Shown one piece after another: positions 30,317-49,498 of a stretch of 64,000 nucleotides of DNA. Position numbers and translations under genes: made by a program. The notes beneath the pieces are model-generated. The model made no database searches and was not told the DNA's origin. It saw only the letters and a list, made by a program, of their open reading frames with translations. Source of the DNA: Ruminiclostridium papyrosolvens DSM 2782 (GTDB taxonomy: Bacteria; Bacillota; Clostridia; Acetivibrionales; DSM-1351); contig NZ_CP119677.1 of assembly GCF_029318685.1 (NCBI RefSeq), positions 3,215,001 to 3,279,000 on the forward strand, in the 5' to 3' direction. The number at the start of each line of letters is the position of its first letter. The first letter of the stretch is position 1.

Positions 30317-30346
30317 GGCAATATGCCTCCAAAATTATGATATATA

Positions 30347-30370
30347 AAAGCGACTTATTAAAGCCGCTTT
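30347..30370 (-). terminator. Weak terminator after the zinc-ribbon gene
   Basis: AAAGCGGC/GTCGCTTT (8 bp, one wobble) with an 8-base loop and a short following TTTTATA on the minus strand. Confidence 0.5.
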
Positions 30371-30401
30371 ATGATATCATATAATTTTGTCTTAATATTG
30401 T

Positions 30402-30689: not shown

Positions 30690-30758
30690 AGCAACCCCCA
30701 AAGCCAAACTATTTTTTTGTATAATATACCATATATTCAAATTAATAACTATATAGAA

Positions 30759-32509: not shown

Positions 32510-32525
32510 CTCCTTTTAATATAAG

Positions 32526-32545
32526 CAGGCTGATTTTACAGCCTG
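32526..32545 (-). repeat. Intercistronic hairpin between modA and modB
   Basis: CAGGCTG and CAGCCTG form a 7-bp stem with a 6-base loop, 12 bases after the modA stop and without a T run. It could stabilise the modA part of the message, as the binding protein is usually needed in excess. Confidence 0.45.
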
Positions 32546-32557
32546 TTATATACAGTT

Positions 32558-33367: not shown

Positions 33368-33368
33368 G

Positions 33369-34193
33369 TCAAATCACCTCCGTTTTTTGTAAGTCCGAAA
33401 ACAACAAGTTCTGTGCTTTTTTAATTACATCTACAGCATCTGTATGCTCCGGTTTTATGTTAAAAATCCCTCCGGCAGCTAGTATAAACTGGTATAAGTC
33501 ACAGTTTCCTGCTCTCTCTCCGATACCTCCAATTGTGGTATCTATGTATAAAGCGCCGGCTTTAGCTGCAATCAGAGAATTTGCCAAGGCCATTCCCAAA
33601 TCATTATGAGCGTGTATTCCTACGGGTATATCAACATTTTCCTTTATTTCACGTATACACTGATATGTTCTTGCCGGAGTCAGCACCCCTACCGTATCAG
33701 CAAATCTTACACTTTTTACTCCCATATCAGCCAGCAGGTTTGCCATGCTTATTATAAATGTTATATCAGCCCGTGAAGCATCTTCAAACCCAACTGTTAC
33801 TTCATAGCCTTTGTCTTTTGCCATAAAAACGCATTCCTGCAATGTGTTTCTTAGCCATTTTTTATTTTTGTTAAGCTTTGAGTATATGTGTATATATGAT
33901 ATAGGAGCAGTTATATGAATAATATCCGGATGACAGTCAAAGGAATTATTTATATCATCCCTGCTCATTCTGTTCCATGTGGAAATCAAGGCATTTTTTC
34001 TCTGACTCATGATTTCTGATATTGTTTCTTTTTCATAATTACCCATTGCCGGTATGCCTGCTTCTATCTGATAAATTCCCGCATCATCCATCACCTTTGC
34101 CAGTTCTACCTTCTGAGCTTTGCTAAAGGCATATCCGGGAGTTTGTTCCCCGTCACGGAGAGTTGTGTCGATTATATATTTCTTTTCTTTCAT
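33369..34193 (-). CDS. nifV: Homocitrate synthase, catalytic-barrel subunit
   Basis: About 274 residues, covering only the TIM barrel of homocitrate synthase. IIDTTLRDGEQTPGYAFS holds the catalytic Arg and metal Asp, and GIHAHNDLGMALANS the metal histidines. The C-terminal communication domain is missing and is supplied by the upstream gene, as in the nifV(omega)/nifV(alpha) pair of C. pasteurianum. Start chosen at ATG 34193 after GGAG; an in-frame TTG lies upstream. The product homocitrate is the organic ligand of FeMo-co. Confidence 0.88.
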   Translation of the reverse strand: MKEKKYIIDTTLRDGEQTPGYAFSKAQKVELAKVMDDAGIYQIEAGIPAMGNYEKETISEIMSQRKNALISTWNRMSRDDINNSFDCHPDIIHITAPISYIHIYSKLNKNKKWLRNTLQECVFMAKDKGYEVTVGFEDASRADITFIISMANLLADMGVKSVRFADTVGVLTPARTYQCIREIKENVDIPVGIHAHNDLGMALANSLIAAKAGALYIDTTIGGIGERAGNCDLYQFILAAGGIFNIKPEHTDAVDVIKKAQNLLFSDLQKTEVI

Positions 34194-34213
34194 ATATATC
34201 AACTCCAATTAGT

Positions 34214-35170
34214 TTATGAAAACTTCATTGCAATAGAAATAAATTCACTGTCATTAAGGCCTCTGCCAAGACGTATGCTCTCTTCCCTTATTCGGGTTAA
34301 CAATAATGATATTTTTTCATTCTTGGGAATTACTCCATATTCTTTCAATTTCAGTTCCACAGCGGATTTTCCTGAATGCTTGCCTATTACTATATTTCTT
34401 GACATCCCCACAACTTTAGGCTCAAAAGGCTCATAATTTGAGCTTTTTTTAAGTATACCGTCCACATGTATTCCGGATTCAACATCAAATATATGATCTC
34501 CTATAACAGCCTTGTTTCCGGCAATGTGACATCCGGTTAACTCCTGATATAGTTCTTTTATTTCACGGAAAACCGATAAATCCATATTGGGCTTGTGACG
34601 TTTTGCAATACGCAGTATCATAACTAATTCTTCAAGTGCTGCAAATCCTCCGGCTCCCGAAAAGCTTACAGCTATGTTTTCCCCTTCATTTAAAACCCAT
34701 TCAGCCGCAAGTGCCGTTGCACAATAATACCTGTTCTGGGGGCAGAATTCCAACCTGCCGCTGAATATTTCTTTAATTTTCTCAAAGGTATTAACATAAT
34801 CATGTATTAAAAGGTCATCAAGCCCAATAATTCTGACATTTTTATTTTCTGAGTATTTAGTTATTTGATTTAATTCCCTGATATCATTAACCTGAATTTC
34901 CGATATTAAATTTGGTGGTGTTTCAAAACTTCCTAAACGGCATACATAGCCTGCAAATCCGGGAAATGTACTTATCTGAGTGGGATAATGTATCCTTAGA
35001 ACAGTTTTTGCTTTGTCTACTGTTTCTTTAATTAATTCAAATAAAGGAATATCAATTTCAATATAGCTGATTCCCGTTTGCAATAGCAGACTGTAAAGCT
35101 GAGAAAGCTTTTGTTCCGGGGCAGCTTTATAATTAAACGTACATAATGTTATATCCGTTATTTTTATCAT
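34214..35170 (-). CDS. nifV: Homocitrate synthase, second subunit
   Basis: 318 residues: a degenerate barrel without the RDGEQ catalytic motif, followed by the region of the family's C-terminal part (FDVESGIHVDGILKKSSNYEPFEP, then VIGKHSGKSAVELKLKEYG). It fits nifV(omega) of C. pasteurianum. It is 20 bases upstream of the catalytic-barrel gene, so a heteromeric enzyme is expected. Confidence 0.85.
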   Translation of the reverse strand: MIKITDITLCTFNYKAAPEQKLSQLYSLLLQTGISYIEIDIPLFELIKETVDKAKTVLRIHYPTQISTFPGFAGYVCRLGSFETPPNLISEIQVNDIRELNQITKYSENKNVRIIGLDDLLIHDYVNTFEKIKEIFSGRLEFCPQNRYYCATALAAEWVLNEGENIAVSFSGAGGFAALEELVMILRIAKRHKPNMDLSVFREIKELYQELTGCHIAGNKAVIGDHIFDVESGIHVDGILKKSSNYEPFEPKVVGMSRNIVIGKHSGKSAVELKLKEYGVIPKNEKISLLLTRIREESIRLGRGLNDSEFISIAMKFS

Positions 35171-35204
35171 ATTATGCCCCCCTGATATTTGCTTTACTGC
35201 CGGC

Positions 35205-35513
35205 TTATATAACCAGATCTTTTACCTTCTCTCCCCCAATAAGGTGCTGTTCGACTATTGTTTCAACATCGTCTTCCGTGACATTTCCGTACCAGGTACC
35301 TTCCGGGTAGATTACTACAACAGGCCCCTTGTCGCATATTCCAAAACAACCTGTATTTGTTACCATAACCTCGCCGGTTAAATCATTATCGTCTATTTCT
35401 TCCATAAATTTTTGTATCAGTGCAACACTTCCCTTTGAGTGGCAAAAGCCCTTCTGGGTTCCGTTAATTCTACAGCTTGCACATACAAACACATGATATT
35501 TGGGACTTACCAT
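35205..35513 (-). CDS. Thioredoxin-fold [2Fe-2S] ferredoxin
   Basis: 102 residues, very like the [2Fe-2S] ferredoxin of C. pasteurianum: MVSPKYHVFVCASCRINGTQKGFC, EVMVTNTGCFGICDKGPVVVIYPEGTWYGNV. Cluster cysteines are those in CASC, GFC and the CFGIC loop. The start at 35513 has AGAGAGG upstream and matches the family length; the longer frame runs into nifNB. The C. pasteurianum protein is known to associate with the nitrogenase MoFe protein. An electron-transfer or cofactor-assembly role here is inferred from its place in the nif operon. Confidence 0.9.
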   Translation of the reverse strand: MVSPKYHVFVCASCRINGTQKGFCHSKGSVALIQKFMEEIDDNDLTGEVMVTNTGCFGICDKGPVVVIYPEGTWYGNVTEDDVETIVEQHLIGGEKVKDLVI

Positions 35514-35535
35514 AAAAACCTCTCTTTCTACACGC

Positions 35536-38190
35536 CTACCGGACACATAGCTGTTCGGCCGCCTTTTTTACGGCATCTTCAATCCTGTCATAGGTTGTAA
35601 ATATCTCAATTGATTGCTCCTTGAGCTTTTGTTTAGGTACTTCTCCTATTCTCATTGCCACTACTCCGTTACAATCCTTGACGGCCTCAAGAATGGCATC
35701 CATTTTTCCTTCTTTATTGCCACCACCCATTCCGTCACAGCTTTCGGAGCCATCACAATATTTGGAAACACTCCTTTTTTCTCTGAACCGTATGCTTTTA
35801 TTTAGATATTCATATATATAGAAATCCGTTGCGTGACCAAAATGCTGGTCTACAAGCACTCCGCTCTTTGAGGAAACTGCAAACAGCATACTTTCTTGCT
35901 TCTTTTCTGACGTACATCCTCTGAATTCTATTGACTGGTCATTGTCCAGAGTACCCACTGCATCGGCTCTGCACTGACGGCAATGATACATTTGCGGCAT
36001 TACTTCTCCGCAGATTTTTCGCATCTCCATTATCTCCTTGTTACTTGTAAGGGGCATATTTTCAAACGCACTTCCGGCTACAGGTATCAGTTGCATTATG
36101 TTGGATATATGGCATCCAAGTTCCTTTGCTTTTTTAACTACCTGCCGGACATGGTACTCGTTGATTCCTTTAAGCATAACTACATTTACCTTGCATACAA
36201 CACCCAGAGCCGAAAGCTTTTTAAGTCCTGCCATCTGGTTTGCCATAAGAATTGCTGCTCCAACCTCTCCAAAGTATCTGTTGCCCATATAATCAATGTG
36301 TTTATATATTTTTGCTCCTATTGCTGCATTTACGGCATTCATTGTAACGGTTACATGAGATACTCCCAACCCCGCAAGTTCTTCTGCATACAGTGGAAGC
36401 ATCAGTCCGTTTGTAGACAGGCAAAAGGTTACTTGTGGGTCAAATTCTTTAATGAGTGCCAGTGTCTTTCTGGTATTTGTAAAATTCGCCAGAGAGTCTC
36501 CCGGTCCTGCAATTCCTACTACGGTGAGGTTTGGCATCTTTTGTTTTACGATTTTATATTTTTCCAGAGCTTGTTCAGGTGATAGTATTTCAGTTGTAAC
36601 TCCGGGTCTGCTTTCATTTGGGCAATCATATTTTCTGACACAGTAGTTGCACTGTATGTTGCATTTAGGAGCTATGGGAAGATGTATTCTGGCATATCCG
36701 CTGCCACAGCCGTTAAAACATGGGTGAGTTGCTGATTTTTTTAAATTAATGGCTTTCAGGTCCTCTGAAGTTGTTTCAACAGGTAAAACAGCCTCTTCCA
36801 TATCTGACTTTGTTTCAGGCTCTGCCTTGTAATACTGATTGTATAAAGAGCTGCGGAAGCTGTGTTCTTTTTGTGTCAGCAGAGTGTTTGTAATTTTGTC
36901 AAGCAGGGTGATTGAGCCTTCGTAACCCAGTATTCTTATCCTTTGCCCGCCGATATTGTCATGGATGGGAAATGCACATCTCACAAGGGGGAGTTTGTGT
37001 TTTTCTTCGATTCGCCTGCCGTCAGAGCTTCCTATCATCAGGTTGGCACCTAGTTCTAAAGCATATTTTTCAATTGTATCGAAATCACAGTCATCAATTA
37101 TTTTAAATTTTTCTACAAATGCGTAATCAGATGCTTTTTGTATTTCCTCTGTCAAAAGATTGCTAAGGGAGCTGCATTTTGATCCGGTGGCAACTACTAC
37201 AGGCATAATCCCATTTTCAGTACACAATCTCACTGTGGAGTATACAAAATCCGGTTCTCCGAAAATTACTGCTCGACCCTCACTATTGTACTTATGTGAA
37301 TCAATTATGGAATCCAGATACCTTCCCCGTTCTTTTTTTATCTCAGCAGTCATAGTGCCTCCTGCCTTTACAAGCTGACGGATAAATATATCCGTATCTC
37401 GCAGTCCGACAGGAAGACTGCATCTGACAAATGGTACCCCATAAGCTTCATATAAATATTCCGCCGGGGAGTCTTCTCCGTTTATAAAGCTGGAAAGCTC
37501 TATTGTCAACTTTGCACCGCCCATAAGTGAAATTTCCTCAATAGAGGTTCCACCCTCCGGCAATCGGTTATATACCTTGGCATACTCTCCGTCAAGATTA
37601 TCAGATATATCAGGAAGCAATATATAATCTATTTTCATGGAATCAAGTAATTTTTTTAAATAACGGGTGTCTGCCGGAGAAATAAGACCTGTTATAATAT
37701 TTATCCTGTTATTCTTTTTTACGTTCATTTCTACATTTTCAACAATAGCTCTGAGTGCTTTGAAAAATCCTTCGTATTGTGTTCCTGAATAGCCTGCCGA
37801 AGATACTGGAATTATTCTGACATTTGCCCCGGGATGTTTTTCATAAAATTCATTTATTATTCTCTTGATATCTTCCCCTATGGTTTCTGCCAAACAAGTG
37901 GTTGCTACTCCTATTATTTCAGGTTTGTACAGTGATATCATGTTTTCTAAACCCTTTATAAGATTGCCTTCACCACCAAAAACAGTTCCTTCCTCTGTAA
38001 GTGATGAAGAAGCAATATCTACAGGTTCATTGTAGTGTGTTGCCATATGCCTTCTTATATAGGTACTGCAGCCTTGTGAGCCGTGAAGTATTGTCATACA
38101 TTTCTTTATTCCGCAGAAAGCACTTACACTTCCCATAGGCATACACATTTTACACGGATTTACAGTTAGGTTTACCAGGTTTTTGCTCAT
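35536..38190 (-). CDS. nifB: NifN-NifB fusion, FeMo-cofactor scaffold and radical-SAM enzyme
   Basis: 884 residues in three parts. Residues 1-445 are NifN (NPCKMCMPMG, HGSQGCSTYIRR, ATTCLAETIGED). After a 40-residue linker, 488-760 are the NifB radical-SAM core with Cys510-x3-Cys514-x2-Cys517 binding the SAM cluster and extra cysteines for the K clusters. Residues 768-884 are a NifX-like cofactor-binding domain (SGVLVDQHFGHATDFYIYE). NifB builds the NifB-cofactor that NifEN matures, so the fusion tethers producer and scaffold. The same fusion is known from C. pasteurianum. Confidence 0.95.
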   Translation of the reverse strand: MSKNLVNLTVNPCKMCMPMGSVSAFCGIKKCMTILHGSQGCSTYIRRHMATHYNEPVDIASSSLTEEGTVFGGEGNLIKGLENMISLYKPEIIGVATTCLAETIGEDIKRIINEFYEKHPGANVRIIPVSSAGYSGTQYEGFFKALRAIVENVEMNVKKNNRINIITGLISPADTRYLKKLLDSMKIDYILLPDISDNLDGEYAKVYNRLPEGGTSIEEISLMGGAKLTIELSSFINGEDSPAEYLYEAYGVPFVRCSLPVGLRDTDIFIRQLVKAGGTMTAEIKKERGRYLDSIIDSHKYNSEGRAVIFGEPDFVYSTVRLCTENGIMPVVVATGSKCSSLSNLLTEEIQKASDYAFVEKFKIIDDCDFDTIEKYALELGANLMIGSSDGRRIEEKHKLPLVRCAFPIHDNIGGQRIRILGYEGSITLLDKITNTLLTQKEHSFRSSLYNQYYKAEPETKSDMEEAVLPVETTSEDLKAINLKKSATHPCFNGCGSGYARIHLPIAPKCNIQCNYCVRKYDCPNESRPGVTTEILSPEQALEKYKIVKQKMPNLTVVGIAGPGDSLANFTNTRKTLALIKEFDPQVTFCLSTNGLMLPLYAEELAGLGVSHVTVTMNAVNAAIGAKIYKHIDYMGNRYFGEVGAAILMANQMAGLKKLSALGVVCKVNVVMLKGINEYHVRQVVKKAKELGCHISNIMQLIPVAGSAFENMPLTSNKEIMEMRKICGEVMPQMYHCRQCRADAVGTLDNDQSIEFRGCTSEKKQESMLFAVSSKSGVLVDQHFGHATDFYIYEYLNKSIRFREKRSVSKYCDGSESCDGMGGGNKEGKMDAILEAVKDCNGVVAMRIGEVPKQKLKEQSIEIFTTYDRIEDAVKKAAEQLCVR

Positions 38191-38218
38191 TCTTATTCAC
38201 CCCTTCCCTTTTCAAAAT

Positions 38219-39565
38219 TTAAGTTTCCTGCTTAATGTACTCCCATACCGGACTGTTCATTGACAGATTTATTTCTTTTGTAAAATTAACTACTCCCTCA
38301 TATCCGGCAAGTGCGTGTTTTCTTTCATGGTTGTGGTCGCAAAAAGCAATTCCAAGTTTATAAGCAAGAGGTCTTTCCTTAACACCCCCTACCAGAATAT
38401 CCGCTTCCTTCTCCTTCATAAAGGTTTCCAGCTCAGCAGGGTTTGCATCATCCAGAATTACGGCATTTTGTCCAACCAGATTTGTAATAATCTCATATTC
38501 CTCAGGTTTTCCTGTTTGTGTTCCAACGACAACTGTTTCAATTCCCATCTGATTAAACTGTCTTATTAGAGAAATTGCCTTAAAACCCCCGCCCACGTAA
38601 ATTGCTGCTTTTTTACCTTCAAGTCGGCTTCTGTATTTTTCCAACATTGGCCTAAGTCTCTCGGTTTCTGATTGCGTAAATTGTTTGGCTTTTTGTATAT
38701 TTTCTTCTGTGCCTATTGCTTCTGCTATTCTGATTAATGATTGTGAGGTGTCTTCTACGCCGAAGAAGCTGACCTTTATAAAGGGAATATCCATTTTTTC
38801 TTCCATTTTCTTTGCCAGATAAGTCATTGAACCAGCACACTGAACAAGATTCAGCCTCGCCGAAGGTGCCTTTATAAGATTGTCGTAGCCGGCATCCCCG
38901 GTTATTGTTGAAACTACGGGGATACCTATTTCATTAAGGTAATTTTTAATTATCCACATTTCGCCGGCAAGGTTGAAATCTCCAAGGATATTGACTCCAT
39001 TAGTTTTAGGAATATCGTTATGTGGCTTCAAAAGTTCCAGTATGGCATTACACGCCATTTTGTAACCATAGGATTTGTTACCTGAGAATCCGGGGGACTT
39101 TACGGGGATAACCCTTGTACCGTGTTTCTTTTCTGCATGTCTGCACACGGCTTCCACGTCATCACCTATTACCCCAACAATACATGTGGCATAGACAAAA
39201 ATCACTTTTGGATTATGCTTCTGGACAACCTCGTCAATGGCAGCACTGAGCTTTTTCTCTCCTCCGAAAACAATATCCTGTTCCGTCAAGTCTGTTGAAA
39301 AGCTGTTTCTGTAAAGGTCGCTTCCACTGGTCAGGCTTCCCCGGATATCCCATGTATAACTGGCACATCCTATGGGACCGTGGACAATATGAAATGCGTC
39401 TGTAATTGGGTTCAGCACTACTCTTGCACCGCAGTATACACATGCCCTCTGGCTTACGGCTCCCGATACGCTGTTGCTTTCACATTTGATAGCTGTCTTC
39501 CCGGTTTTTTCAAATCCGAATTTTATAGAGTCTTTTCTTTCTTCCAATATAAGTGATTCTGTCAT
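38219..39565 (-). CDS. nifE: FeMo-cofactor scaffold protein NifE
   Basis: 448 residues. CVYCGARVVLNPITDAFHIVHGPIGCASYTWDIRG and ATCIVGVIGDD hold the cluster cysteines; NLVQCAGSMTYLAKKME lies at the cofactor site. With the NifN half of the next gene it forms the NifEN scaffold on which the NifB-cofactor becomes FeMo-co. It lies 40 bases after nifK. Confidence 0.94.
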   Translation of the reverse strand: MTESLILEERKDSIKFGFEKTGKTAIKCESNSVSGAVSQRACVYCGARVVLNPITDAFHIVHGPIGCASYTWDIRGSLTSGSDLYRNSFSTDLTEQDIVFGGEKKLSAAIDEVVQKHNPKVIFVYATCIVGVIGDDVEAVCRHAEKKHGTRVIPVKSPGFSGNKSYGYKMACNAILELLKPHNDIPKTNGVNILGDFNLAGEMWIIKNYLNEIGIPVVSTITGDAGYDNLIKAPSARLNLVQCAGSMTYLAKKMEEKMDIPFIKVSFFGVEDTSQSLIRIAEAIGTEENIQKAKQFTQSETERLRPMLEKYRSRLEGKKAAIYVGGGFKAISLIRQFNQMGIETVVVGTQTGKPEEYEIITNLVGQNAVILDDANPAELETFMKEKEADILVGGVKERPLAYKLGIAFCDHNHERKHALAGYEGVVNFTKEINLSMNSPVWEYIKQET

Positions 39566-39604
39566 TCTTATGCCCCCTTCTCCAAAGGTTTAGGTTTTCT
39601 TGAT

Positions 39605-40969
39605 TTACATAACTATTTCAAATTCTTCATCACTTGCATCTCTGTCCTGTCTGTCCATCAAGGCTCCCGCAATCATCTCCACCAGTCTTATTGCTCCTTT
39701 GTAGCCTACTATTGGTGCATATGAATGTACATATCTGTCAAGCACAGGAAATCCGGCACGTACAAAGGGTATGTCCTCGGCCTTTGCTATTTGTTTACCA
39801 TAAGATGTTCCAAGAAGCAGGTCAACCTTTTCATTCTTTATCCATTGATGAAGTTCGAACAAGTCTCCTGCTGCTTTTGCAGTGCAACCGGTTACACCAT
39901 ATTGGTCAAAAAGCTTGTTAGCCAGCTTTACAAAAGCTTCTCCGGGGGTTCCTGTCAGAACATATTTAGGAATCATTCCCATTTCCAACGCTAGACGGGT
40001 AAGACCTAGAACTGTGTCGGGATCACCGAATATTGCAACTGTTTTCTCATGAAAATAGAAATGTGCATCTAGAATAATGTCTACCAATTGTCCACGTTCC
40101 TCTTCAAGCTCGTATGGAATTTCCTCGTTTGTTATCTGTGAAAGCTCCATAACAAATTTGTCAGTAGCATCAATTCCTATAGGCAGCTCCATCAGAGAAT
40201 GCGGTACCTTGCACTTTCTTTCCAATACATTTGCAGGCTCCTCACTTGTAAGTTCACCCAGAGCAAGGACCTTATCGCAGTCGCCTAACCCCATTATTTC
40301 AGGTATTGTCGTTCCGCCCTTAGGATACATTGCGTACATTCCTGTCATGGGTGCATCCATTACTCCGCTCTGGTCAGGGAACATTGTAAAAGGTACTTTC
40401 ATAAGATTTAGTATTCTTTTTAATTCCCTGATGTCGCCCGGATTTACAAACCCGGGGAAAATTGCAGTTTTGCCGTTTGATTGACCTGTTGATTCGGCCA
40501 TATAGGTAATAAATCCGGACATCATATTATAAAATCCATTTACGTGTGAGCCTACATAGCTTGGTGTGTTTGTATGAACAACGTATTTTCCTTCGGGTAT
40601 ATCAATATCCTGGATAAAAGCATTCAGGTCATCTCCTATTGTTTCACTCAGACAGGTGGTATGTACTGCAATAATATCAGGGTTGTATATATCGAATACA
40701 TTTTTTACACCTGTTTTGAGATTGCTTCCGCCACCAAATACCGAAGCACCTTCTGTAAATGAACTTGTAGATGACATTGCAGGCTCTTTGAAATGCCTTG
40801 ACAAAAATGTTCTGTGGTAGGAGGCACATCCCTGTGAGCCATGGCTATGAGGCATACAGTTATGTACTCCAAGTGCTGCATACATTGCACCAACAGGCTG
40901 ACAAGTTTTACACGGATTTATTTTTAAGCTGCTGCGTTCTGTTATTTCTTTTGGAGTCATTTTAAGCAT
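39605..40969 (-). CDS. nifK: Mo-nitrogenase MoFe protein beta chain
   Basis: 454 residues. P-cluster cysteines are Cys23 (NPCKTCQPVGA), Cys48 (HGSQGCASY) and Cys106 (HTTCLSETIGDD). It lacks the ~50-residue N-terminal extension of the Azotobacter chain, as does the C. pasteurianum protein. The start overlaps the nifD stop by one base (TAATG) with GGAGGT upstream, giving coupled synthesis of the two chains. Confidence 0.95.
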   Translation of the reverse strand: MLKMTPKEITERSSLKINPCKTCQPVGAMYAALGVHNCMPHSHGSQGCASYHRTFLSRHFKEPAMSSTSSFTEGASVFGGGSNLKTGVKNVFDIYNPDIIAVHTTCLSETIGDDLNAFIQDIDIPEGKYVVHTNTPSYVGSHVNGFYNMMSGFITYMAESTGQSNGKTAIFPGFVNPGDIRELKRILNLMKVPFTMFPDQSGVMDAPMTGMYAMYPKGGTTIPEIMGLGDCDKVLALGELTSEEPANVLERKCKVPHSLMELPIGIDATDKFVMELSQITNEEIPYELEEERGQLVDIILDAHFYFHEKTVAIFGDPDTVLGLTRLALEMGMIPKYVLTGTPGEAFVKLANKLFDQYGVTGCTAKAAGDLFELHQWIKNEKVDLLLGTSYGKQIAKAEDIPFVRAGFPVLDRYVHSYAPIVGYKGAIRLVEMIAGALMDRQDRDASDEEFEIVM

Positions 40970-42561
40970 TATTCTTCACCTCCTGCTAATGAAGCTTTTA
41001 GAGTTGACCTGTTTTTCCACGGTGGTGTAACAAATCCCCAAGCCGGGGTATACAGTCCCATTGTTATATCTCTTGCAAAGTTAACGGAACCTCTGAAGCC
41101 TGAGTACGGGCCGCTGTAATCATAGGAATGCAGCTGTCTTGCCAGAACTCCTGACTTTTGGAGTGAGTATTTATCCTTAATTCCCGAGAAAAATATGTCA
41201 GGTTTCAACAGTTTCAGGAACTCGTCAGTCTCAAACTGATTCAAATCGTCAACTATAATACTGCCGTTTTCCATATGTCTTATCATACCTGTATAGTCTT
41301 CCAGAGGAATTTTTGATTTTAGCATTTCATATTGCTCATCAGTAAGGTATGCATGATATTTTTTGTCGTCTTTTTCTACATTGAGGTGTTCTATATTTTT
41401 GCTGTCGGCATCTTCTTTTATAGTAGGAATTACTTCTCTGCCTTCGTAGTCATCTCTGTGTGCAAATTCGTAACCTGCAAGAACTGTGGAAACACCGAAG
41501 TCTGAAAGTAACAGCTGATAATGATGTGATCTTGACCCGCCTACATAGAGAGCAGCTGTTTTACCTTTAAGCTTTGAATAGTAGTATTCCTTCTCTTCTG
41601 CAATGTTTGCAAGTTCGTCGTCTATTACCTCTTCGGTCCGCTCTGCGAGTTCCTTATCACCAAAGTAAGCTGCCATATCTCTTAAGGATTGTATAGTTGA
41701 TTTTATTCCAATGAAGTTTACCTTAATCCAGTCCACACCGTATTTGGTTTTCATCATTTCAGCAATGTAGTTTATTGAACGGTGACATTGCACCAGATTA
41801 AGATTTGCCATATGTGAATTCTTTATTGCTTCAAAGCTTCCATCTCCGGTAAATACCGATATTACATCGTAGCCGATACGCTTCATGATTCTTTCAACTT
41901 CCCAGCCGTCTCCGCCGATATTATATTCTCCCAGTAGGTTTACAGAGTATTTATTTTTAGGAGGAGTATCATTTGTGCCTATAATTTTTTTCATGATAGT
42001 GTTATTGGCAATATGATGGCCACCACTCTGGCTGACACCCTTGTATCCCTCACAACTGAATGCCATACAGCTAATTCCGTACAACTGTTCAGTTTCTGTC
42101 GCAACTGCATGTATGTCGTCACCTATAAGTCCTACGGGGCAGGTAGAGCATATCATGATACATTTTGGCTTAAAGATTTCTACTGCTTCTTTTATTGCCT
42201 GTCTCAGCTTTTTTTCGCCGCCGAAAACTATATCAGGCTCCTGAAGGTCAGTTGAAAAGCAATATTCAATAAAGTTTCTTCCGTCCTCAGTTTTTGCTTT
42301 GTTTCTTCTGGTTCCCCAGGAATAGAAACCGCATCCTATAGGCCCGTGTGTTAATACCAGAACATCCTTTAAAGGCCCGAGAACAACACCTTTACATCCT
42401 GCATAACAACATCCCCTGTTTGTTATGATTCCCGGAACAGTACGGCTGTTTGCCGCAATGGGCTGTTCTTTAGTTTCCTCAGTCAGCTCCATTATGTGTT
42501 CTTTTCTATTTTTGTATACTTTTGCACTATATTTATCTAATACAATATTTCTTACATTCAT
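40969..42561 (-). CDS. nifD: Mo-nitrogenase MoFe protein alpha chain
   Basis: 530 residues from ATG 42561 (MNVRNIVLDKY). P-cluster ligands are Cys51, Cys77 (HGPIGCGF) and Cys141 (STCPVGLIGDD); FeMo-co ligands are Cys259 (NLVQCHRS) and His478 (RQLHSYDYSG). An insertion at about 385-440 before the cofactor His region is the hallmark of the C. pasteurianum-type alpha chain. This marks a molybdenum rather than V or Fe-only enzyme. It is preceded by GGTGGTGAG and follows nifI2 by 19 bases. Confidence 0.95.
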   Translation of the reverse strand: MNVRNIVLDKYSAKVYKNRKEHIMELTEETKEQPIAANSRTVPGIITNRGCCYAGCKGVVLGPLKDVLVLTHGPIGCGFYSWGTRRNKAKTEDGRNFIEYCFSTDLQEPDIVFGGEKKLRQAIKEAVEIFKPKCIMICSTCPVGLIGDDIHAVATETEQLYGISCMAFSCEGYKGVSQSGGHHIANNTIMKKIIGTNDTPPKNKYSVNLLGEYNIGGDGWEVERIMKRIGYDVISVFTGDGSFEAIKNSHMANLNLVQCHRSINYIAEMMKTKYGVDWIKVNFIGIKSTIQSLRDMAAYFGDKELAERTEEVIDDELANIAEEKEYYYSKLKGKTAALYVGGSRSHHYQLLLSDFGVSTVLAGYEFAHRDDYEGREVIPTIKEDADSKNIEHLNVEKDDKKYHAYLTDEQYEMLKSKIPLEDYTGMIRHMENGSIIVDDLNQFETDEFLKLLKPDIFFSGIKDKYSLQKSGVLARQLHSYDYSGPYSGFRGSVNFARDITMGLYTPAWGFVTPPWKNRSTLKASLAGGEE

Positions 42562-42580
42562 TTGTCTCACCACCTGTCAT

Positions 42581-42955
42581 TTAAAGTATGTTTTCACCTG
42601 TTCTAACCTTATAAGTCTCCTGAACAGGTATTACGAATATTTTTCCGTCTCCGGGATTTCCGGTCTGGTTTACGTTAATAATTGTTTTAACTGCCAAATC
42701 TACCTGTTCGTCATCTAAAACCAATGAAAAAAACCTTTTGGGAATCAATCTGGCCGTCTCTGTAAATGCTTCACCTGCATTGGATACAGGCAATTCTCCG
42801 GCTTCCATGATATAGTTTAAAACGGTTGCATCAAGGCTTTTTTTACCTCTCCCGAGGCAAGGCCTGCAGGAGAAGGCCGGAAATCCGGCATTGGCAAGTG
42901 CTTCCTTGGTTCTGTTAACTTTGTTGGTACGTATAAAAGCCATAACCTCTTTCAT
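42581..42955 (-). CDS. nifI2: Nitrogenase-specific PII-like regulator NifI2
   Basis: 124 residues from ATG 42955 (MKEVMAFIRTNKVNRTKEAL) with GGAGGT upstream. PII fold with a longer T-loop region (RPCLGRGKKSLDA) and GNPGDGKIFVIPVQETYKVRTGE at the C-terminus. Its position between nifH and nifD and its pairing with NifI1 identify it. NifI1-NifI2 complexes are known to inhibit dinitrogenase when ammonium is high and to be released by 2-oxoglutarate. Confidence 0.92.
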   Translation of the reverse strand: MKEVMAFIRTNKVNRTKEALANAGFPAFSCRPCLGRGKKSLDATVLNYIMEAGELPVSNAGEAFTETARLIPKRFFSLVLDDEQVDLAVKTIINVNQTGNPGDGKIFVIPVQETYKVRTGENIL

Positions 42956-42967
42956 AAGCAACACCTC

Positions 42968-43294
42968 CTATAAGCCTTGTTTTGCAGTACTAATGGTATA
43001 TGCATCCATAACTTCACTGATAAATATTCTTCCATCACCAAAGTTTCCTTTTTCCCCTGTACGTGCATTCCTCATAATTATTTTTACAACATCGTCCTTG
43101 TCTTCATCATTTACAACAATCAACAGCATTTCTTTTGGAATCTCATCATACTGGATATCACCTATTACAATTCCCTTTTGCTTTCCTCTTCCATATACAT
43201 CCATTTTAGTTACTGCAGGAAAACCTGCTGACAGCAACTCTGAAAGTACTATACCTGTTCTTTCAGGTCTGATAATTGCTCTTACCAATATCAT
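42968..43294 (-). CDS. nifI1: Nitrogenase-specific PII-like regulator NifI1
   Basis: 108 residues from ATG 43294 (MILVRAIIRPERTGIVLSEL) with GGCGGA upstream; the longer open frame has no comparable site. PII fold with VYGRGKQKGIVIG in the T-loop and NFGDGRIFISEVMDAYTI at the end. The Tyr uridylylated in GlnB is not found in the T-loop. It acts with NifI2 in ammonium switch-off. Confidence 0.92.
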   Translation of the reverse strand: MILVRAIIRPERTGIVLSELLSAGFPAVTKMDVYGRGKQKGIVIGDIQYDEIPKEMLLIVVNDEDKDDVVKIIMRNARTGEKGNFGDGRIFISEVMDAYTISTAKQGL

Positions 43295-43458
43295 AATTTC
43301 ATCCGCCTTTCTTTTTAGTAGGTTTAATTTCATCACTAACATTTCAATGATGTTTTTAAACTTTCCGTAGTGAAGTCTGATTAAAAATATTTTGGAGACG
43401 AACCATGGAAAGATTTAAACTCATCAAGCATATCAAAAATGATGCTGAGTGATTAATA

Positions 43459-44322
<864 letters not shown>

Positions 44323-44336
44323 TCAAACTGTAAAAT

Positions 44337-44379
44337 AAAAAGGTCCCAAAACAGAGTTTCCACTCTATGTTTTAAGACC
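44337..44379 (-). terminator. nifH leader hairpin 2, terminator-like
   Basis: GGTCTTAAAAC (44379 downward) pairs with GTTTTGGGACC, with an inner AGAGT/ACTCT stem, an AT bulge and loop GGAA, followed by T5 on the minus strand. It lies 57 bases before the nifH start codon and is preceded by AGACGATG. Confidence 0.65.
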
Positions 44380-44410
44380 TCATCGTCTGACTTTTTGATG
44401 TAATTCTACT

Positions 44411-44460
44411 AAAAAAGTCCCATTATTCACTCGATGTGAATTAATGAGACTTCGTCGTCG
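44411..44460 (-). terminator. nifH leader hairpin 1, terminator-like, with CGACGA lead-in
   Basis: AGTCTCATTA pairs with TAATGGGACT and TTCAC with GTGAA around loop ATCGA, followed by T6 on the minus strand. It is preceded by CGACGACGA (44452-44460). It repeats the layout of the second hairpin about 72 bases away: a GACGA lead-in, a long stem starting (A/G)GTCT and closing GGGAC(T/C), then T run. It lies between the promoter and nifH, so it should act on nif transcription itself. Confidence 0.65.
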
Positions 44461-44504
44461 TTTTTATTAATTTGTTTAGCTTACTAAGAGTATAAGCCTT
44501 TATA

Positions 44505-44534
44505 TTCATATTAACAATACACGAATTCGTCAAT
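44505..44534 (-). promoter_or_regulatory. Candidate nif promoter with a palindrome at the -35 region
   Basis: On the minus strand TTGACG (44528-44533), 17 bases, TATGAA (44505-44510). The palindrome ACGAATTCGT (44521-44530) overlaps the -35 box. No -24/-12 (sigma-54) promoter was seen. Confidence 0.5.
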
Positions 44535-44603
44535 AAAAGCTACTAATTCTAAAGCCATTTTGTATATTTTTTACAAATACGTATTTATTATTCATTGATA
44601 TGG

Positions 44604-44632
44604 TTGATTATTTCTTTCTCTCCTCATATAAT
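44604..44632 (+). promoter_or_regulatory. Promoter of the anfO-like operon
   Basis: TTGATT (44604-44609), 17 bases, TATAAT (44627-44632). Transcription would begin near 44639-44641, only a few bases before a terminator hairpin. Confidence 0.7.
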
Positions 44633-44645
44633 AATAGTAAGTGCA

Positions 44646-44686
44646 ACGGGGCGAATCAAGCTAAATGCTTGATTGCCCCGTTTTTT
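44646..44686 (+). terminator. Strong intrinsic terminator directly after the promoter
   Basis: ACGGGGC-G-AATCAAGC pairs with GCTTGATTGCCCCGT (15 bp, one bulged G, loop TAAAT) followed by T6. No plus-strand gene lies upstream, so it can only act on the leader of the AnfO-like operon or give a ~45-base RNA. Confidence 0.8.
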
Positions 44687-44724
44687 GTATTTTTAATAAA
44701 GAATATTATATAGGAGGTTAAATT

Positions 44725-45354
44725 ATGTTAAAGAGAATTGCAGTGATAGTAAATGATGAACAAGAGCTTTCACCTTTTGAAAAGGGTTCCTTCATAAATA
44801 TATATAATAAGAATAATACACACTGGGAATTATTTAAGGAAGTCCGTTACTATATTAATACTACCATGTCTCTATCAGACCTTAGGGAAAATATAAAAAG
44901 TCTTATTATGGAACTGGAAGATTGCAAGATTATAGTTGGTAAAGTTATGTCAGGTCTTGCTTACAACATATTTGACAGGAATGGGTTTGCAATATTTGAA
45001 GCAAAGAACATTACAAGCAGTATTCTTGATGATATGTATAATGAAGTCATCAGCTTAAAAGCTGAAGCTGCGAACTCAGAGCAAGTTGCTCTTTCACCTG
45101 TTCAAGTAGAAGAAAACGGAGTTTTTTACATAAACCTGATGGAGCTTCAAGCCAAGCATCCTGAAATTTCTTCTAAAAAAGCTATTAAACCTTTTCTGGA
45201 AACTACCCCTTTTTTCAAGCTTGAGGTTATATGCTCCCATGTACCCCCATGGTTTGACAACATACTTCCGGAATTGAATCTAAGCTATTCAGTAGAAGAA
45301 AACGGAGACAACAGATGCAAGGTTTCAATATTAAATAATGTCTGTTCACATTAA
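44725..45354 (+). CDS. AnfO-like nitrogenase accessory protein
   Basis: 209 residues. The N-terminus IAVIVNDEQELSPFEKGSFINIYNK is followed by W-LFKEVRY, MSLSDLRENIKSLIMELEDCKIIVGKVMSG and a C-terminal LEVICSHVPPWFDNILPEL, the order and motifs of the AnfO family otherwise tied to the Fe-only nitrogenase. GGAGG lies 7 bases before ATG. No anfHDGK genes are in the window, so it probably serves the adjacent Mo system or acts on an alternative nitrogenase elsewhere. Biochemical function of AnfO is not well defined. Conserved Cys and His in the C-terminal motif could bind metal. Confidence 0.75.
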   Translation: MLKRIAVIVNDEQELSPFEKGSFINIYNKNNTHWELFKEVRYYINTTMSLSDLRENIKSLIMELEDCKIIVGKVMSGLAYNIFDRNGFAIFEAKNITSSILDDMYNEVISLKAEAANSEQVALSPVQVEENGVFYINLMELQAKHPEISSKKAIKPFLETTPFFKLEVICSHVPPWFDNILPELNLSYSVEENGDNRCKVSILNNVCSH

Positions 45355-45383
45355 TTTTCCATAATAAAAAGGAGGTTGCCAAT

Positions 45384-46352
45384 ATGTCAGAAAATATTCG
45401 TGAAAATCTATTAGGTATTGTCAGTGCTTTTTGTTTTGAAAGCGGAAGAATTAAAGAATGCATACTCTGCAAAAAAAATGTAATTAAAACTGAATACGGC
45501 GATTTAATTCCTAAATATGGTGAAGATGAAGTACGTAAAAAATACTGTCACTCTATTTCGTTTTATGAAAGCGGAAAAGTTAAAAGTATTTCTTTAGAAT
45601 CCTCAACCTTAATAAAAACAACCTTGGGTACTTTCCCCGCAGAACTTGTTACTTTTTATGAATCCGGCAGTCTGAAAAGGATTTTCCCATTGAATGGAAA
45701 GCTAAGCGGTTATTGGGGCCAAGAGGATGAAGAAAAACTTTGTGACGAATTCAGGTTTCATTTTCCTTTTGGTAGCTTCAAGACAAAAATAATTGGTCTT
45801 TGCTTTTATGAAAGCGGAAACCTAAAATCATTGACCTTGTGGCCGGGTGAAAATATTATCCTTAAAGCTGCCCACGACCTTATCCCGGTTAGGATAGGTT
45901 TTTCATTATATGAAAACGGAAAGCTTAAATCGGTGGAGCCTGCCTATGAAATAACAGTACCTACTCTAATCGGAGAATTAACAGCTTACGATGCAAATGC
46001 TCTTGGTATACATGCCGACTGCAACTCACTGGTCTTCACTGAAAGCGGAAATATACAAGCTCTTTCCACAAGCAGCAGTAAGGTGGCTATATTTGAAAAG
46101 GGCGGCTCCTTTGAAACAATGAAAGCAATAGTTAAGCCCGACCCTTTTGAAGAAGGTGTTGTTTCCCTGGTGCCACTGGAAATTTCTTTTGAAGGGCATT
46201 ATGTAAAATTCAACAGTGATAAAAAACGTATATATGATATTAACACAACAAGATTTACAATAGTAAATGATTCCGCAGCAGCTACAGGTTCCGGTCTTTC
46301 ATGTACGGACTGTTCAAGTTGCAGTCTGTGTAAAAAAAGTAATTACATCTGA
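45384..46352 (+). CDS. YESG-repeat protein with CxxCxxCxxC tail, unknown
   Basis: 322 residues, no signal peptide or membrane segment. Six copies of (F/Y/T)E(S/N)G-x-(I/V/L)-(K/Q) occur at 18, 61, 92, 142, 176 and 219, each followed by a beta-like stretch (KSISLES, KSLTLW and similar), so it is probably a beta-repeat fold somewhat like MORN repeats. The C-terminus has Cys307, Cys310, Cys313 and Cys316 with two residues between each, a ferredoxin-like cluster motif. It follows the AnfO-like gene by 29 bases with AGGAGG, so it is co-transcribed. A metal or Fe-S role in nitrogenase maturation or regulation is a guess from context. Confidence 0.75.
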   Translation: MSENIRENLLGIVSAFCFESGRIKECILCKKNVIKTEYGDLIPKYGEDEVRKKYCHSISFYESGKVKSISLESSTLIKTTLGTFPAELVTFYESGSLKRIFPLNGKLSGYWGQEDEEKLCDEFRFHFPFGSFKTKIIGLCFYESGNLKSLTLWPGENIILKAAHDLIPVRIGFSLYENGKLKSVEPAYEITVPTLIGELTAYDANALGIHADCNSLVFTESGNIQALSTSSSKVAIFEKGGSFETMKAIVKPDPFEEGVVSLVPLEISFEGHYVKFNSDKKRIYDINTTRFTIVNDSAAATGSGLSCTDCSSCSLCKKSNYI

Positions 46353-46689
46353 TTGAAAATGTGAAATTGCAGGGGCTGTTTTGCAGTTGTTTATAGTTGA
46401 ATGCGGGAAGTCACATTTTACTGAATTATATATAAAAAGCTACAAGAAAGTAACCTTTTTGTAATTGTAAAGTAACTTTAATATAATTTTCTATTAAACT
46501 ATGTTAAAATATTAATAATCATTATAAAAGTTGTGTATTATAGGGGCAGAAATAGACTTTACATTTGATACATATATACGGCTGTGCTCTTATGTTTTAC
46601 TCTTTCAGATATTCTTTTGTTTATCTTGATGTTCCTATTTATGCATTTCTTTTTTTTGAAAAAAATACAAAATAGGAATTGGAGAGATT
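46353..46689 (+). promoter_or_regulatory. Intergenic region with NlpC/P60 promoter and long leader
   Basis: A promoter TTGTAA (46459-46464), 17 bases, TATAAT (46482-46487) precedes a leader of about 195 bases. Just before the ribosome-binding site TTCCTATTT (46632-46640) and AAATAGGAA (46670-46678) form an inverted repeat. No cyclic-di-AMP riboswitch motif was recognised. Confidence 0.5.
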
Positions 46690-48336
46690 ATGAGTTTAAA
46701 AAAGATAAAAAGTTTAATAAGTAATATACCAAAGAAAATTAAGAATTATAAAAATAAATATCCATCAAAATATAAATATATAATTGTTTCATGTTCAGGT
46801 GCAGCAGCGTTGGCTCTTACGGCAGCAATCGTTTTAACACTACCGCACTCAAATCCTAAAATCAATGTAACGGATAAACCGGAAAAAACGGTTTCAGTAT
46901 CCGACCAAACACCACAGCAAAAGTATTCTAAACCCGCTACAGAGTCAAATGCTTTAACTAAGACCTCCCGTGGTATTACTCCTATGAATCCTTTACAAGG
47001 GGATGTTATAAAATTAGGAGTAAAAGACAGTACCGTAACAGTTATTCAAAAGAAACTCATGGACTTGGATTATCTTGAAATTGACGAACCAACTGAAGAA
47101 TTTGGAGAGTCTCTTAAATTGGCAACAGAATTATTTCAACGTAAAAACAAGTTACCCATAACAGGTGAAGTTGACGCTAAGACCTATCAGCTTTTGCTTT
47201 CAGATGACGCAAAAGCATATACCGTTTCTCTGGGAGCTGAAGGAACTGATGTACAGCAGCTTCAGGAACGTCTGTATGAATTGGGGTACATGGGCAAGGC
47301 AACAGGTTATTTCGGTACGGATACAGATATTGCTGTAAAGGATTTTCAGAAAAGAAACGGCCTTTTTGATGACGGTAATGTAGGTAAGCAGACAAGAGAA
47401 GTTTTATATTCTGCAAAAGCAGTTCCAATGTCCTTTTATTTAGGAGACGAAAACAAGGAAATACTTCAATATAAACAAAGATTGTATGAACTTGGCTACC
47501 TCACCGCAAAGCCCAGCGGAAAGTATGATAATGATACTGTTCAGGCAGTTAAGCGTTTTCAGGAAAATAACGGTTTGATTGCCGATGGTTTTATAGGGCC
47601 GGTTACAAAAGATTTGCTTATGTCGTCAGATGCTACTGAAAACGCCCTTGATATAGGCGACAGCGGAGATGATGTTACCAAAGTTCAGACATACCTGAAG
47701 AAACTCGGTTATTTGAAAAGTGTAACAGGATATTTTGGCTCCGATACTCATAATGCTGTTCTCAAGTTCCAGTCAAAAAATGGTCTGGGAAAGGACGGAA
47801 AAATAGGCTCTCAAACAATAGCCAAGCTCTTGTCCCCTGATGCAAAGAAATGGACAGGAGGTACGGGTAGCAGTTCAAACGGCAATAATTCAGGAGGGTC
47901 AAATAATTCCGGCAATTCCAGCCAGAACAATAATTCCGGTGGTGATGATGACAACGGCGGAGGCTACGTTAGTCCAAGCGTTGAGCAACTTATATCAGTA
48001 GCTAAATCAAAACTTGGAAGCAGATATATATATGGTGCAAAAGGGCCTAACAGCTTTGATTGCTCGGGATTTGTTTACTGGGTATTAAAAAATTCAGGAG
48101 TCAGACAAGGTTACATGACTTCCGGAGGATGGGCCGGAAATGGCAGGTATAAAAGGATATCCAGTATGAGTAGTATAAAACGTGGAGATATTATTACATA
48201 CAATGGTCACGTGGGTATTGCACTGGGCGGAAATCAGATGATTGATGCATCCTCAAGTCAAGGCAAAGTTCGTATTACAAACATAACTTCTTCCTACTGG
48301 ACAAGGAATTTTGTCTGTGCATTCAGAATATTCTAG
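46690..48336 (+). CDS. Secreted/anchored NlpC/P60 endopeptidase with four peptidoglycan-binding domains
   Basis: 548 residues. A Lys-rich cytosolic start, one membrane segment (about 34-52), then four PG_binding_1 modules (about 103-165, 176-240, 250-315 and 322-383; each LG...V..LQ..L..LGYL...G.F), a Gly/Ser/Asn-rich linker (390-428) and an NlpC/P60 catalytic domain with Cys458 (FDCSGFVYW) and His507 (GHVGIALGGN). It cleaves peptide stems in peptidoglycan. It is a single gene with its own promoter and terminator. Confidence 0.9.
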   Translation: MSLKKIKSLISNIPKKIKNYKNKYPSKYKYIIVSCSGAAALALTAAIVLTLPHSNPKINVTDKPEKTVSVSDQTPQQKYSKPATESNALTKTSRGITPMNPLQGDVIKLGVKDSTVTVIQKKLMDLDYLEIDEPTEEFGESLKLATELFQRKNKLPITGEVDAKTYQLLLSDDAKAYTVSLGAEGTDVQQLQERLYELGYMGKATGYFGTDTDIAVKDFQKRNGLFDDGNVGKQTREVLYSAKAVPMSFYLGDENKEILQYKQRLYELGYLTAKPSGKYDNDTVQAVKRFQENNGLIADGFIGPVTKDLLMSSDATENALDIGDSGDDVTKVQTYLKKLGYLKSVTGYFGSDTHNAVLKFQSKNGLGKDGKIGSQTIAKLLSPDAKKWTGGTGSSSNGNNSGGSNNSGNSSQNNNSGGDDDNGGGYVSPSVEQLISVAKSKLGSRYIYGAKGPNSFDCSGFVYWVLKNSGVRQGYMTSGGWAGNGRYKRISSMSSIKRGDIITYNGHVGIALGGNQMIDASSSQGKVRITNITSSYWTRNFVCAFRIF

Positions 48337-48351
48337 ATTTTTAAATATATT

Positions 48352-48378
48352 AGGACGCTATGCATTTCATAGCGTCTT
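48352..48378 (+). terminator. Terminator of the NlpC/P60 gene
   Basis: GACGCTATG/CATAGCGTC stem with a short loop followed by TTTCTT, 16 bases after the stop. Confidence 0.7.
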
Positions 48379-48396
48379 TCTTATTATGTAGTCAGA

Positions 48397-48430
48397 AAAA
48401 ATCCGTCGGTTTTCGCCGACGGATTTTTTT
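48397..48430. terminator. Terminator of the convergent dehydrogenase gene
   Basis: AAAAATCCGTCGG/CCGACGGATTTTT with loop TTTTCG, perfect and flanked by A and T runs, located downstream of the minus-strand dehydrogenase. Confidence 0.8.
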
Positions 48431-48457
48431 AGGAGTATTATATATGGAAATATAAAA

Positions 48458-49498
48458 TTAGTCTATTTTTATAACTGCCTTAACAACATCCTGCTTGTTG
48501 TTTATTACGTAGTCAAAAGCATGTGCAACATCATCAAAATCAAATTCATGTGTTACTATACCTGTTATATCTATGATTCCTTTAGATATAGCCTTTATAG
48601 CTACCGGATATATGTTTTTGTAACGGAAAACCGATTTAATTGTAGCTTCCTTTGCCATAATCTTTGCAAAGTTAAATTCAATTATATCCTGTGGAGCTAA
48701 ACCTACAAGAACAATAGTACCACCGTTTTTAACAAGGTAAGGAGTTTGTGAAATAGTCCTTGCAGAGCCTGCAGTTTCTATAACAATATCCACACCCCTT
48801 TTATCAGTGAGTTTGTCTATTTCTGCAAACACATCTGTTTCCATGGCATTTATTGTTTTGGTTGCTCCAAGCTTCATTGCATATTCAAGTCTCTTAGGTA
48901 TTACATCGACTACAGTAATATCAGTTGCTCCGTTTGCTTTACATGCAAGCAAAGTAACAAGTCCTATTGTTCCTGCTCCAAGAATAACAACTGAGCTTCC
49001 AAGCTTTACTTCTCCCTGGTTTGCCGCATGCATACCAACAGCCAAAGGTTCAACTAATGCTCCCTCTTTTGTTGTTATATTTTCAGGCAGTTTAAAGCAC
49101 ATATTCTCCGGGAAAGCAATATAATTCATTAATGAACCATGATATGGCGGTGTTGCCAAAAATTCAACATCGGGGCAAAGATTATATCTTCCTGTTTTGC
49201 AGAATTCACATTGTCCGCAAGTTATTCCCGGTTCCAACGCAACCTTGTCTCCCACCTGCAAATTTTGTACTCCGCTGCCAACTTCAACAACAGTTCCGGC
49301 ACATTCATGTCCAAGTATGAAATCTCCGTTTACTATAAAATCACCGATTTTTCCATGCTCAAGATAATGCACATCAGAACCGCAAATTCCCACATACTCA
49401 AGCTTTACAAGTACATCCTTTTCTCTGAGCTTTGGAACCGCTATGTCCCTTATCTCCATTTTGTTTATTCCTGTCATATAAGCCGCTCTGTTTTTCAT
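48458..49498 (-). CDS. Zinc-dependent polyol/sorbitol-type dehydrogenase
   Basis: 346 residues from ATG 49498 with GGAGGT upstream. Catalytic zinc site in GICGSDVHYLEHGKIGDF and GHECAG; structural zinc cysteines in CGQCEFCKTGRYNLC; NAD fold VVILGAGTIGLV. It resembles sorbitol/xylitol dehydrogenases of the medium-chain family. It shares a candidate upstream motif with the neighbouring sugar ABC transporter and ROK genes, so it likely oxidises a sugar alcohol linked to that transporter. Confidence 0.85.
   Translation of the reverse strand: MKNRAAYMTGINKMEIRDIAVPKLREKDVLVKLEYVGICGSDVHYLEHGKIGDFIVNGDFILGHECAGTVVEVGSGVQNLQVGDKVALEPGITCGQCEFCKTGRYNLCPDVEFLATPPYHGSLMNYIAFPENMCFKLPENITTKEGALVEPLAVGMHAANQGEVKLGSSVVILGAGTIGLVTLLACKANGATDITVVDVIPKRLEYAMKLGATKTINAMETDVFAEIDKLTDKRGVDIVIETAGSARTISQTPYLVKNGGTIVLVGLAPQDIIEFNFAKIMAKEATIKSVFRYKNIYPVAIKAISKGIIDITGIVTHEFDFDDVAHAFDYVINNKQDVVKAVIKID

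Follow-up and report, generated by a model that had tools for sequence, protein, structure and literature searches.

An AnfO-family gene and a cysteine-tailed MORN_2 repeat gene beside a clostridial Mo-nitrogenase cluster: a candidate cofactor-handling pair

AnfO has so far been studied as a guard of the Fe-only nitrogenase. Cofactor sorting by this protein was shown in Azotobacter vinelandii, where it blocks FeV-co and FeMo-co from the apo-FeFe protein (PMC9310841, PMC11938142). There, the N domain of AnfO binds the apo-FeFe protein, its C domain binds FeMo-co and the full-length protein binds FeV-co too; a change of His203 destroyed AnfO function, and Cys159 and Cys201 were dispensable (PMC11938142). 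The same paper describes NafY and NifX as holding the cofactor or its precursor via a histidine (PMC11938142). The gene next to Azotobacter anfO is anfR, and AnfR inactivation leads to poor diazotrophic growth, a phenotype related to that of AnfO (PMC9310841).

The locus described here lies in the window, i.e. the whole stretch of 64,000 nucleotides from Ruminiclostridium papyrosolvens DSM 2782 that was analysed (Table 1). Two genes on the same strand, 29 bases apart and divergent from the nifH ORF, code for an AnfO-type protein and a repeat protein; their placement opposite nifH in the first-pass annotation agrees with the ORF coordinates and strands. Each is preceded by an AGGAGG-type ribosome site. 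On the minus strand the gene order is nifH, two P-II-type genes, which we take to be nifI1 and nifI2, nifD, nifK, nifE, nifN-nifB, a 2Fe-2S ferredoxin (NF041612), two nifV-type genes and modABC. The second P-II-type gene gave a weak P-II match (47.7 bits of 202) and the first gave none in NCBIfam. NifD scored 651.5 bits with the nifD model, 2 under its cut-off, vs 312 bits with the V model and 295 with the Fe-only one. Names were given to the mod genes and to the second nifV by inspection; the best match of the first nifV is homocitrate synthase, below cut-off. The ORF lists of the window that were examined contain no anfHDGK, as had been noted earlier.

Table 1. Features of the AnfO/repeat-gene locus and its neighbourhood, in positions of the window.
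Feature	Position	Strand	Details and basis
Promoter-like site of the anfO operon, TTGATT-17 nt-TATAAT	44604..44632	+	consensus match only
Terminator-like hairpin in the leader between promoter-like site and anfO	44643..44692	+	folding, comparison
AnfO-family gene	44725..45354	+	209 aa; ORF list, Pfam, alignment, model
YESG/MORN_2 repeat-protein gene	45384..46352	+	322 aa; ORF list, Pfam, model, shuffling
Secreted cell-wall-hydrolase-like protein with peptidoglycan-binding-type repeats, downstream of the pair	46690-48336		inspection only; apparently unrelated
nifH, divergent neighbour	43459..44316	-	TIGR01287, 465.2 bits; longest ORF, true start may be internal
Two P-II-type genes	42581..43342	-	ORF list; same order in related loci
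nifD	40969..42573	-	NCBIfam
nifK	39605..40969	-	best model nifK, 416.1 bits, cut-off 427.3
nifE	38219..39565	-	630.2 bits, cut-off 505.1
nifN-nifB fusion with C-terminal PF02579 domain	35536..38190	-	Pfam, NCBIfam

A similar promoter-like site is found upstream of anfO in three related species. The anfO leader is strongly folded (-28.9 kcal/mol, z -6.7 for the stretch 44639-44692) and its hairpin is present in the window and in three related species; the pattern scan did not list it. Hairpins of different sequence stand upstream of anfO, on its strand, at L069, L070, L033 and L045. The nifH leader carries two tandem terminator-like hairpins of its own on the minus strand (44454-44414 and 44383-44339). 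Tandem hairpins with other loop sequences precede nifH at L068, L069, L070 and L045, and a single one at L033. The nifH-leader hairpins of the window have no Rfam match, and Rfam over 30000-48500 returned a single match, of E 0.076 and far under the gathering score. Transcription attenuation of nif by the nifH-leader hairpins is possible and, since strong hairpins occur in both leaders, the two divergent operons may share leader control.

The first gene had been read as coding for an AnfO-type protein, and its Pfam score (PF09582, AnfO; 181.1 bits) is well over the gathering cut-off of 30.3; all 13 aligned AnfO relatives match the same family. Like the A. vinelandii protein, it is predicted to have two domains and a linker, the model (mean pLDDT 87) showing a NifX-like N domain, a linker at about residues 110-125 and a C domain with the C-x-H motif as C170-x-H172. 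Unlike the Azotobacter protein, it is found in a genome with Mo-nitrogenase only and scores just under the cut-off of TIGR02940, the AnfO equivalog of Fe-only nitrogenase (124.6 bits vs 129.15), the setting of which, an Fe-only nitrogenase in the same genome, is absent here. It counts 209 residues, whereas constructs of the Azotobacter protein extend as far as residue 235 or 245 (PMC11938142). Its gene is paired with the repeat gene, whereas Azotobacter anfO is followed by anfR; anfR and the repeat gene share their position beside anfO.

In Foldseek, the solved structures that best matched the AnfO model were 9ian (E 1.1e-4), where NifX is in complex with NifEN, and 1p90 (E 3.2e-4), the core of NafY. 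The TM-score against 1p90, taken by target, is 0.59, which places the model in the NifX-type core fold. The likeness to NafY and NifX is thus one of solved folds, the comparison for NafY being with its core, whereas no significant sequence match to them was obtained: the window AnfO does not match PF02579, the NafY/NifX sequence family, and one of the 13 relatives does so at E 0.057. Searched by sequence against the PDB, AnfO returned one chain, a sensor histidine kinase (E 0.0035), and the plasmid search with it found nothing. The C170-x-H172 motif is invariant across the 13 aligned copies. When 33 copies were checked, the histidine was present in all 33 and the cysteine in 32. The motif and its invariance are the grounds for equating it with Azotobacter C201-x-H203.

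The second gene codes for a protein previously credited with six (Y/F)ESG repeats. Four of them, at residues 18, 61, 92 and 142, match (Y/F)ESGx(L/I/V)K exactly, and the other two are degenerate (YENGKLK at 176 and TESGNIQ at 219); among 20,000 shuffled versions of the protein, none had more than one repeat copy. The protein had also been assigned to no known family, which needs correcting as to its repeat type: it scores above the cut-off of Pfam MORN_2 (PF07661; 33.2 bits, cut-off 29.6), with no single stretch passing alone, and MORN_2 is matched by 9 of 12 aligned relatives at 0.01. Unlike other MORN_2 proteins, the repeat protein belongs to a distinct full-length family with a cysteine-bearing tail, confined in the class sample described below to nitrogenase genomes. 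It has no match in NCBIfam and, by inspection only, no apparent signal peptide. Plasmid searches with it found nothing, and a defence role was rejected as PADLOC gave no match.

The model of the repeat protein (mean pLDDT 82) is nearly all beta strand, with a body at about residues 11-297 whose sheet we infer to be single-layered. The tail is predicted to be disordered, pLDDT being below 50 over residues 299-322. Among solved structures, the best match by sequence had an E of 0.37, and no structure matched the model at E 0.001 or better in the fold search. A second fold comparison gave Z of at most 6.9, the chains being those of CPAP G-box and OspA, which cover most of the model, and of Hfq, which cover residues 192-302. 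Without a significant fold match, no structural relative is claimed. The cysteines at 307, 310, 313 and 316 (CxxCxxCxxC) are in the sequence as first described. At least one cysteine occurs in the last 10 residues of 70 of 80 repeat proteins, vs about 11% expected from the body, and at least three in the last 40 residues of 47 of 80. The tail is reduced to one or two cysteines in Chlorobaculum and in most Desulfovibrio copies, and five of the 80 proteins have none in the last 40 residues.

The genome (5.03 Mb, one contig) codes for four PF00148 proteins, all located in this cluster and identified by NCBIfam as NifD, NifK, NifE and NifN/NifB. No V or Fe-only nitrogenase was found genome-wide, the best ANFD score being 248.6 bits for a cut-off of 873.8. 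The earlier suggestion that the pair might serve an alternative nitrogenase encoded elsewhere is therefore rejected for this genome. Since only NifD, NifK, NifE and NifN-B are present, the pair can here serve only Mo-nitrogenase, in line with the other option that had been raised, a nitrogenase-linked module acting on this enzyme, which genome content and co-occurrence both support. PF02579 is found in four places of the genome, of which the nif cluster has only the NifN-B tail. The idea that AnfO fills the gap of absent NifX-type proteins is unsupported, PF02579 being present in 26 of 26 nitrogenase genomes, with or without AnfO.

Co-occurrence was assessed in a class sample of 391 genomes, in which the best few candidates per genome were scored for the repeat protein, the nitrogenase alpha subunit and AnfO. 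The draw of species was uneven, with 8 of the 391 genomes from the window's own genus, and for this reason counts were also made by genus. The alpha subunit was found in 26 genomes, the repeat protein in 14 and AnfO in 14; every genome with the repeat protein and every genome with AnfO is one of the 26 (hypergeometric p 5e-19). By genus, the repeat protein occurs in 7 of 222, and the seven are all within the 17 nitrogenase genera (p 4e-9). Both genes are present in 13 of the 26 nitrogenase genomes, the repeat protein alone in one (G186), AnfO alone in one (G003) and neither in 11, so that the module is dispensable to nitrogenase in general. An alternative nitrogenase was detected in only three of the 26 (G004, G098 and G322; ANFD above 700 bits, next best 281). 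Twelve of the 14 AnfO genomes are without one, and G322 has nif plus an alternative nitrogenase yet neither AnfO nor the repeat protein. AnfO is therefore no marker of Fe-only nitrogenase in this class. Within the window's genus, the repeat protein was found in 9 of 11 genomes and AnfO in 10 of 11; G002 has neither, and no nitrogenase alpha subunit. In G003, AnfO is at nif and the repeat protein is absent, and in G009 the repeat protein is on another contig.

Relatives of the repeat protein were sought in a wide scan, which confirmed 128; the counts cover 80 of them. The carriers are Clostridia, other Bacillota, Chlorobaculum, and Desulfovibrio and Desulfobacter relatives, together with Treponema, another spirochaete, Fibrobacterota, Actinomycetota, a Planctomycetaceae bacterium and the archaeon Methanoplasma; presumably, they come mostly from anaerobic groups. 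Nitrogenase-type genes are present in the genomes of 75 of the 80 loci. At 33 loci, a structural or scaffold nitrogenase-type gene scored above 200 bits (L128 and L142 without D or K). Among the 47 genomes searched for the remaining loci, an alpha-type match reaches E 1e-60 in 43 and exceeds the curated cut-off in 38; L142 is counted in both sets and L115 in neither, and some genomes under the curated cut-off have only a NifE-like or partial match. The negatives (L094, L107, L116, L120) are all MAGs, and in three of them AnfO stands next to the repeat gene. Co-occurrence with nitrogenase thus stands at the genome level, in 14 of 14 class-sample genomes and 75 of 80 wide-scan loci. The expectation that the repeat protein would not be found mostly away from nitrogenase genes is borne out at that level, although about half of the copies are physically unlinked: 35 of the 80 loci have no nitrogenase-related gene nearby.

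AnfO was found somewhere in 11 of the 35 genomes with the repeat gene away from nitrogenase genes and was not found in 24. The repeat protein therefore cannot act only through AnfO, and the existence of so large a group with the repeat protein and without AnfO suggests that it has its own contact with nitrogenase. Neighbours of ten stand-alone copies were profiled and are, by name, unrelated to nitrogenase. Some recur within Chlorobaculum, where a DUF2141 protein is seen at 7 loci and a flavoprotein at 8; those of Desulfobacter relatives include ahcY and metK, and no neighbour is common to different lineages. The Desulfovibrio vulgaris mutant-fitness data yielded no link to a homologue (PMC10102598). 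The ORF that precedes the repeat gene of Caproicibacter fermentans (L106:9661-9970) has a weak short AnfO-like match (24 bits), seemingly to part of AnfO. The related genomes of L036, L038 and L043 have a separate nitrogenase-like cluster that codes for NifH-like, two D/E-like, ABC-transporter-type, NifB-like and small PF02579-type proteins. In the genome of L111, a Propionibacterium MAG, a nitrogenase alpha match (G410:C40:132199-133620) is contained in an open frame of 1100 residues, perhaps a fusion or a frame artefact.

AnfO scored above 100 bits in 30 of the 80 loci, on the same strand as the repeat gene and, in 29 of the 30, within 250 bp. Labelled by linked enzyme, the 83 repeat-protein rows divide into 24 nif, 10 anf, 1 vnf and 48 none, the label of L142 having been set to 'none' by hand. 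Profiles confirmed L034 as V type (VNFD 949.2 bits, cut-off 823.1) and, of the anf loci, four that were so tested (L041, L091, L103, L130) as Fe-only type (ANFD 1069 to 1090 bits, cut-off 873.8). The ten anf-linked repeat proteins group with one unlinked copy in a clade of support 100/100 that joins Bacillota, Actinomycetota and Planctomycetota. The nif-linked proteins are spread over several other clades, with the window copy among eight nif-linked rows (98/99). Gene order follows the isozyme as well: AnfO precedes the repeat gene in 14 of 14 nif loci and in the single vnf locus, the order is reversed in 7 of 7 anf loci, and unlinked loci show the former order seven times and the latter once.

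Four genomes have two pairs each, beside different isozymes. In G008, G010 and G098 these stand beside nif and anf. G004 has three isozymes and two pairs (nif and vnf) and, judged by AnfO matches, no pair beside its anf alpha gene. The isozyme types of G004 (V) and G008 (Fe-only) were checked by profile. Over 21 loci, pairwise distances of AnfO and the repeat protein correlate at 0.95, or 0.89 in a partial test given the alpha subunit, and in the 13 nif loci alone the repeat protein correlates at 0.966 with AnfO vs 0.951 with NifD, all by Mantel tests, which ignore phylogeny. Co-variation beyond shared descent is accordingly seen across isozymes and not within nif.

We propose that the two genes form an isozyme-dedicated cofactor-handling module acting on apo-dinitrogenase, a reading for which we see about as much reason to believe as to doubt. 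It draws directly on the association of the pair with nitrogenase, which is strong, the anf-specific clade, the gene pairing, the NifX/NafY-like AnfO model, the invariant histidine and the cysteine enrichment of the tail. The NifX-like N domain of AnfO would dock on immature dinitrogenase that still lacks its cofactor (here apo-NifDK), and the C domain would hold or screen the cofactor through the conserved H172. The repeat protein would be the partner of AnfO, the long beta-sheet body offering a surface on which the isozyme or AnfO could dock, while cysteines of the flexible tail might bind the cofactor, a precursor or an Fe-S cluster during hand-over. We infer the docking, the cofactor binding by the tail and the delivery from these features. 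In a Mo-only organism, the pair would probably play a NafY-like part and deliver FeMo-co or gate its insertion, a job that the lack of a competing isozyme makes likelier than exclusion of a wrong cofactor.

That exclusion is nevertheless the alternative that survives best, although we judge it unlikely. By analogy with the blocking activity reported for Azotobacter AnfO (PMC9310841, PMC11938142), AnfO aided by the repeat protein would bar cofactors that are incomplete or of the wrong kind (Mo-free NifB-co, or forms with V or W) from apo-NifDK. The essential histidine is kept in the window AnfO, but with no second isozyme in the genome the misincorporation problem known for AnfO cannot occur here, and the same is true of the genomes of 12 of the 14 class-sample carriers. 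Less likely again is a role of the repeat protein in Mo or homocitrate supply, in which it would carry Mo or present homocitrate to NifEN. Gene neighbourhoods speak for it, with mod genes, then AnfO, then the repeat gene at L087, L089, L098 and L127, nifV-like, modB-like and repeat genes in the Desulfovibrio relatives L095 and L121, and the repeat gene between two nifV-like genes at L078; as regards Mo, the ten anf-linked copies and the vnf-linked copy nevertheless adjoin enzymes that do not use this metal.

It is improbable, in our view, that the repeat protein protects the nitrogenase of anaerobes from redox or Fe-S stress, or senses such stress, with the cysteine tail as sensor. The enriched cysteines and the presumably mostly anaerobic carriers would fit, but Pfam, NCBIfam and PADLOC returned no known sensor or protection domain, and the anf-specific clade and frequent AnfO pairing point to contact with a specific isozyme. 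That the pair was left behind by an alternative nitrogenase since lost, as the naming of the family after the Fe-only enzyme might suggest, is very improbable, the window copy grouping with nif-linked copies and outside the anf clade, most AnfO genomes of the class sample having no alternative nitrogenase and the histidine being kept in every copy checked.

Compared with these alternatives, we retain the cofactor-handling module. The pair had been put forward as a possible undescribed module for maturation, cofactor sorting or Fe-S protection; sorting by AnfO, however, was already demonstrated in Azotobacter (PMC9310841, PMC11938142), and it is the repeat protein that seems undescribed in the literature searched. 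The open-licence literature, which leaves most subscription journals outside, yielded neither the repeat protein nor AnfO with Mo-nitrogenase alone, and nothing relevant on MORN with nitrogenase. More tentatively, and with the balance tipping against it, we suggest that the repeat protein is the first member of a new family whose proteins carry or insert the cofactor of a specific isozyme. Built from a beta-sheet scaffold and a cysteine-bearing tail and present with the Mo, V and Fe-only nitrogenases of anaerobes, these might hand the finished cofactor or its precursor to the apo-enzyme together with AnfO, or alone where AnfO is absent.

The pair is probably an overlooked helper for building nitrogenase, because relatives of both genes adjoin Mo, V and Fe-only nitrogenases in various anaerobes. 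The presence of AnfO, usually with the same companion, in organisms having only Mo-nitrogenase argues that the AnfO family does something more general in cofactor maturation. As far as the literature searched goes, the repeat protein is an uncharacterised nitrogenase-associated protein of Clostridia, green sulfur bacteria, Desulfovibrio relatives and some archaea. Were it a cofactor carrier, it would bear on how such anaerobes finish their nitrogenase and on which genes to choose when nitrogen fixation is to be transferred to new hosts.
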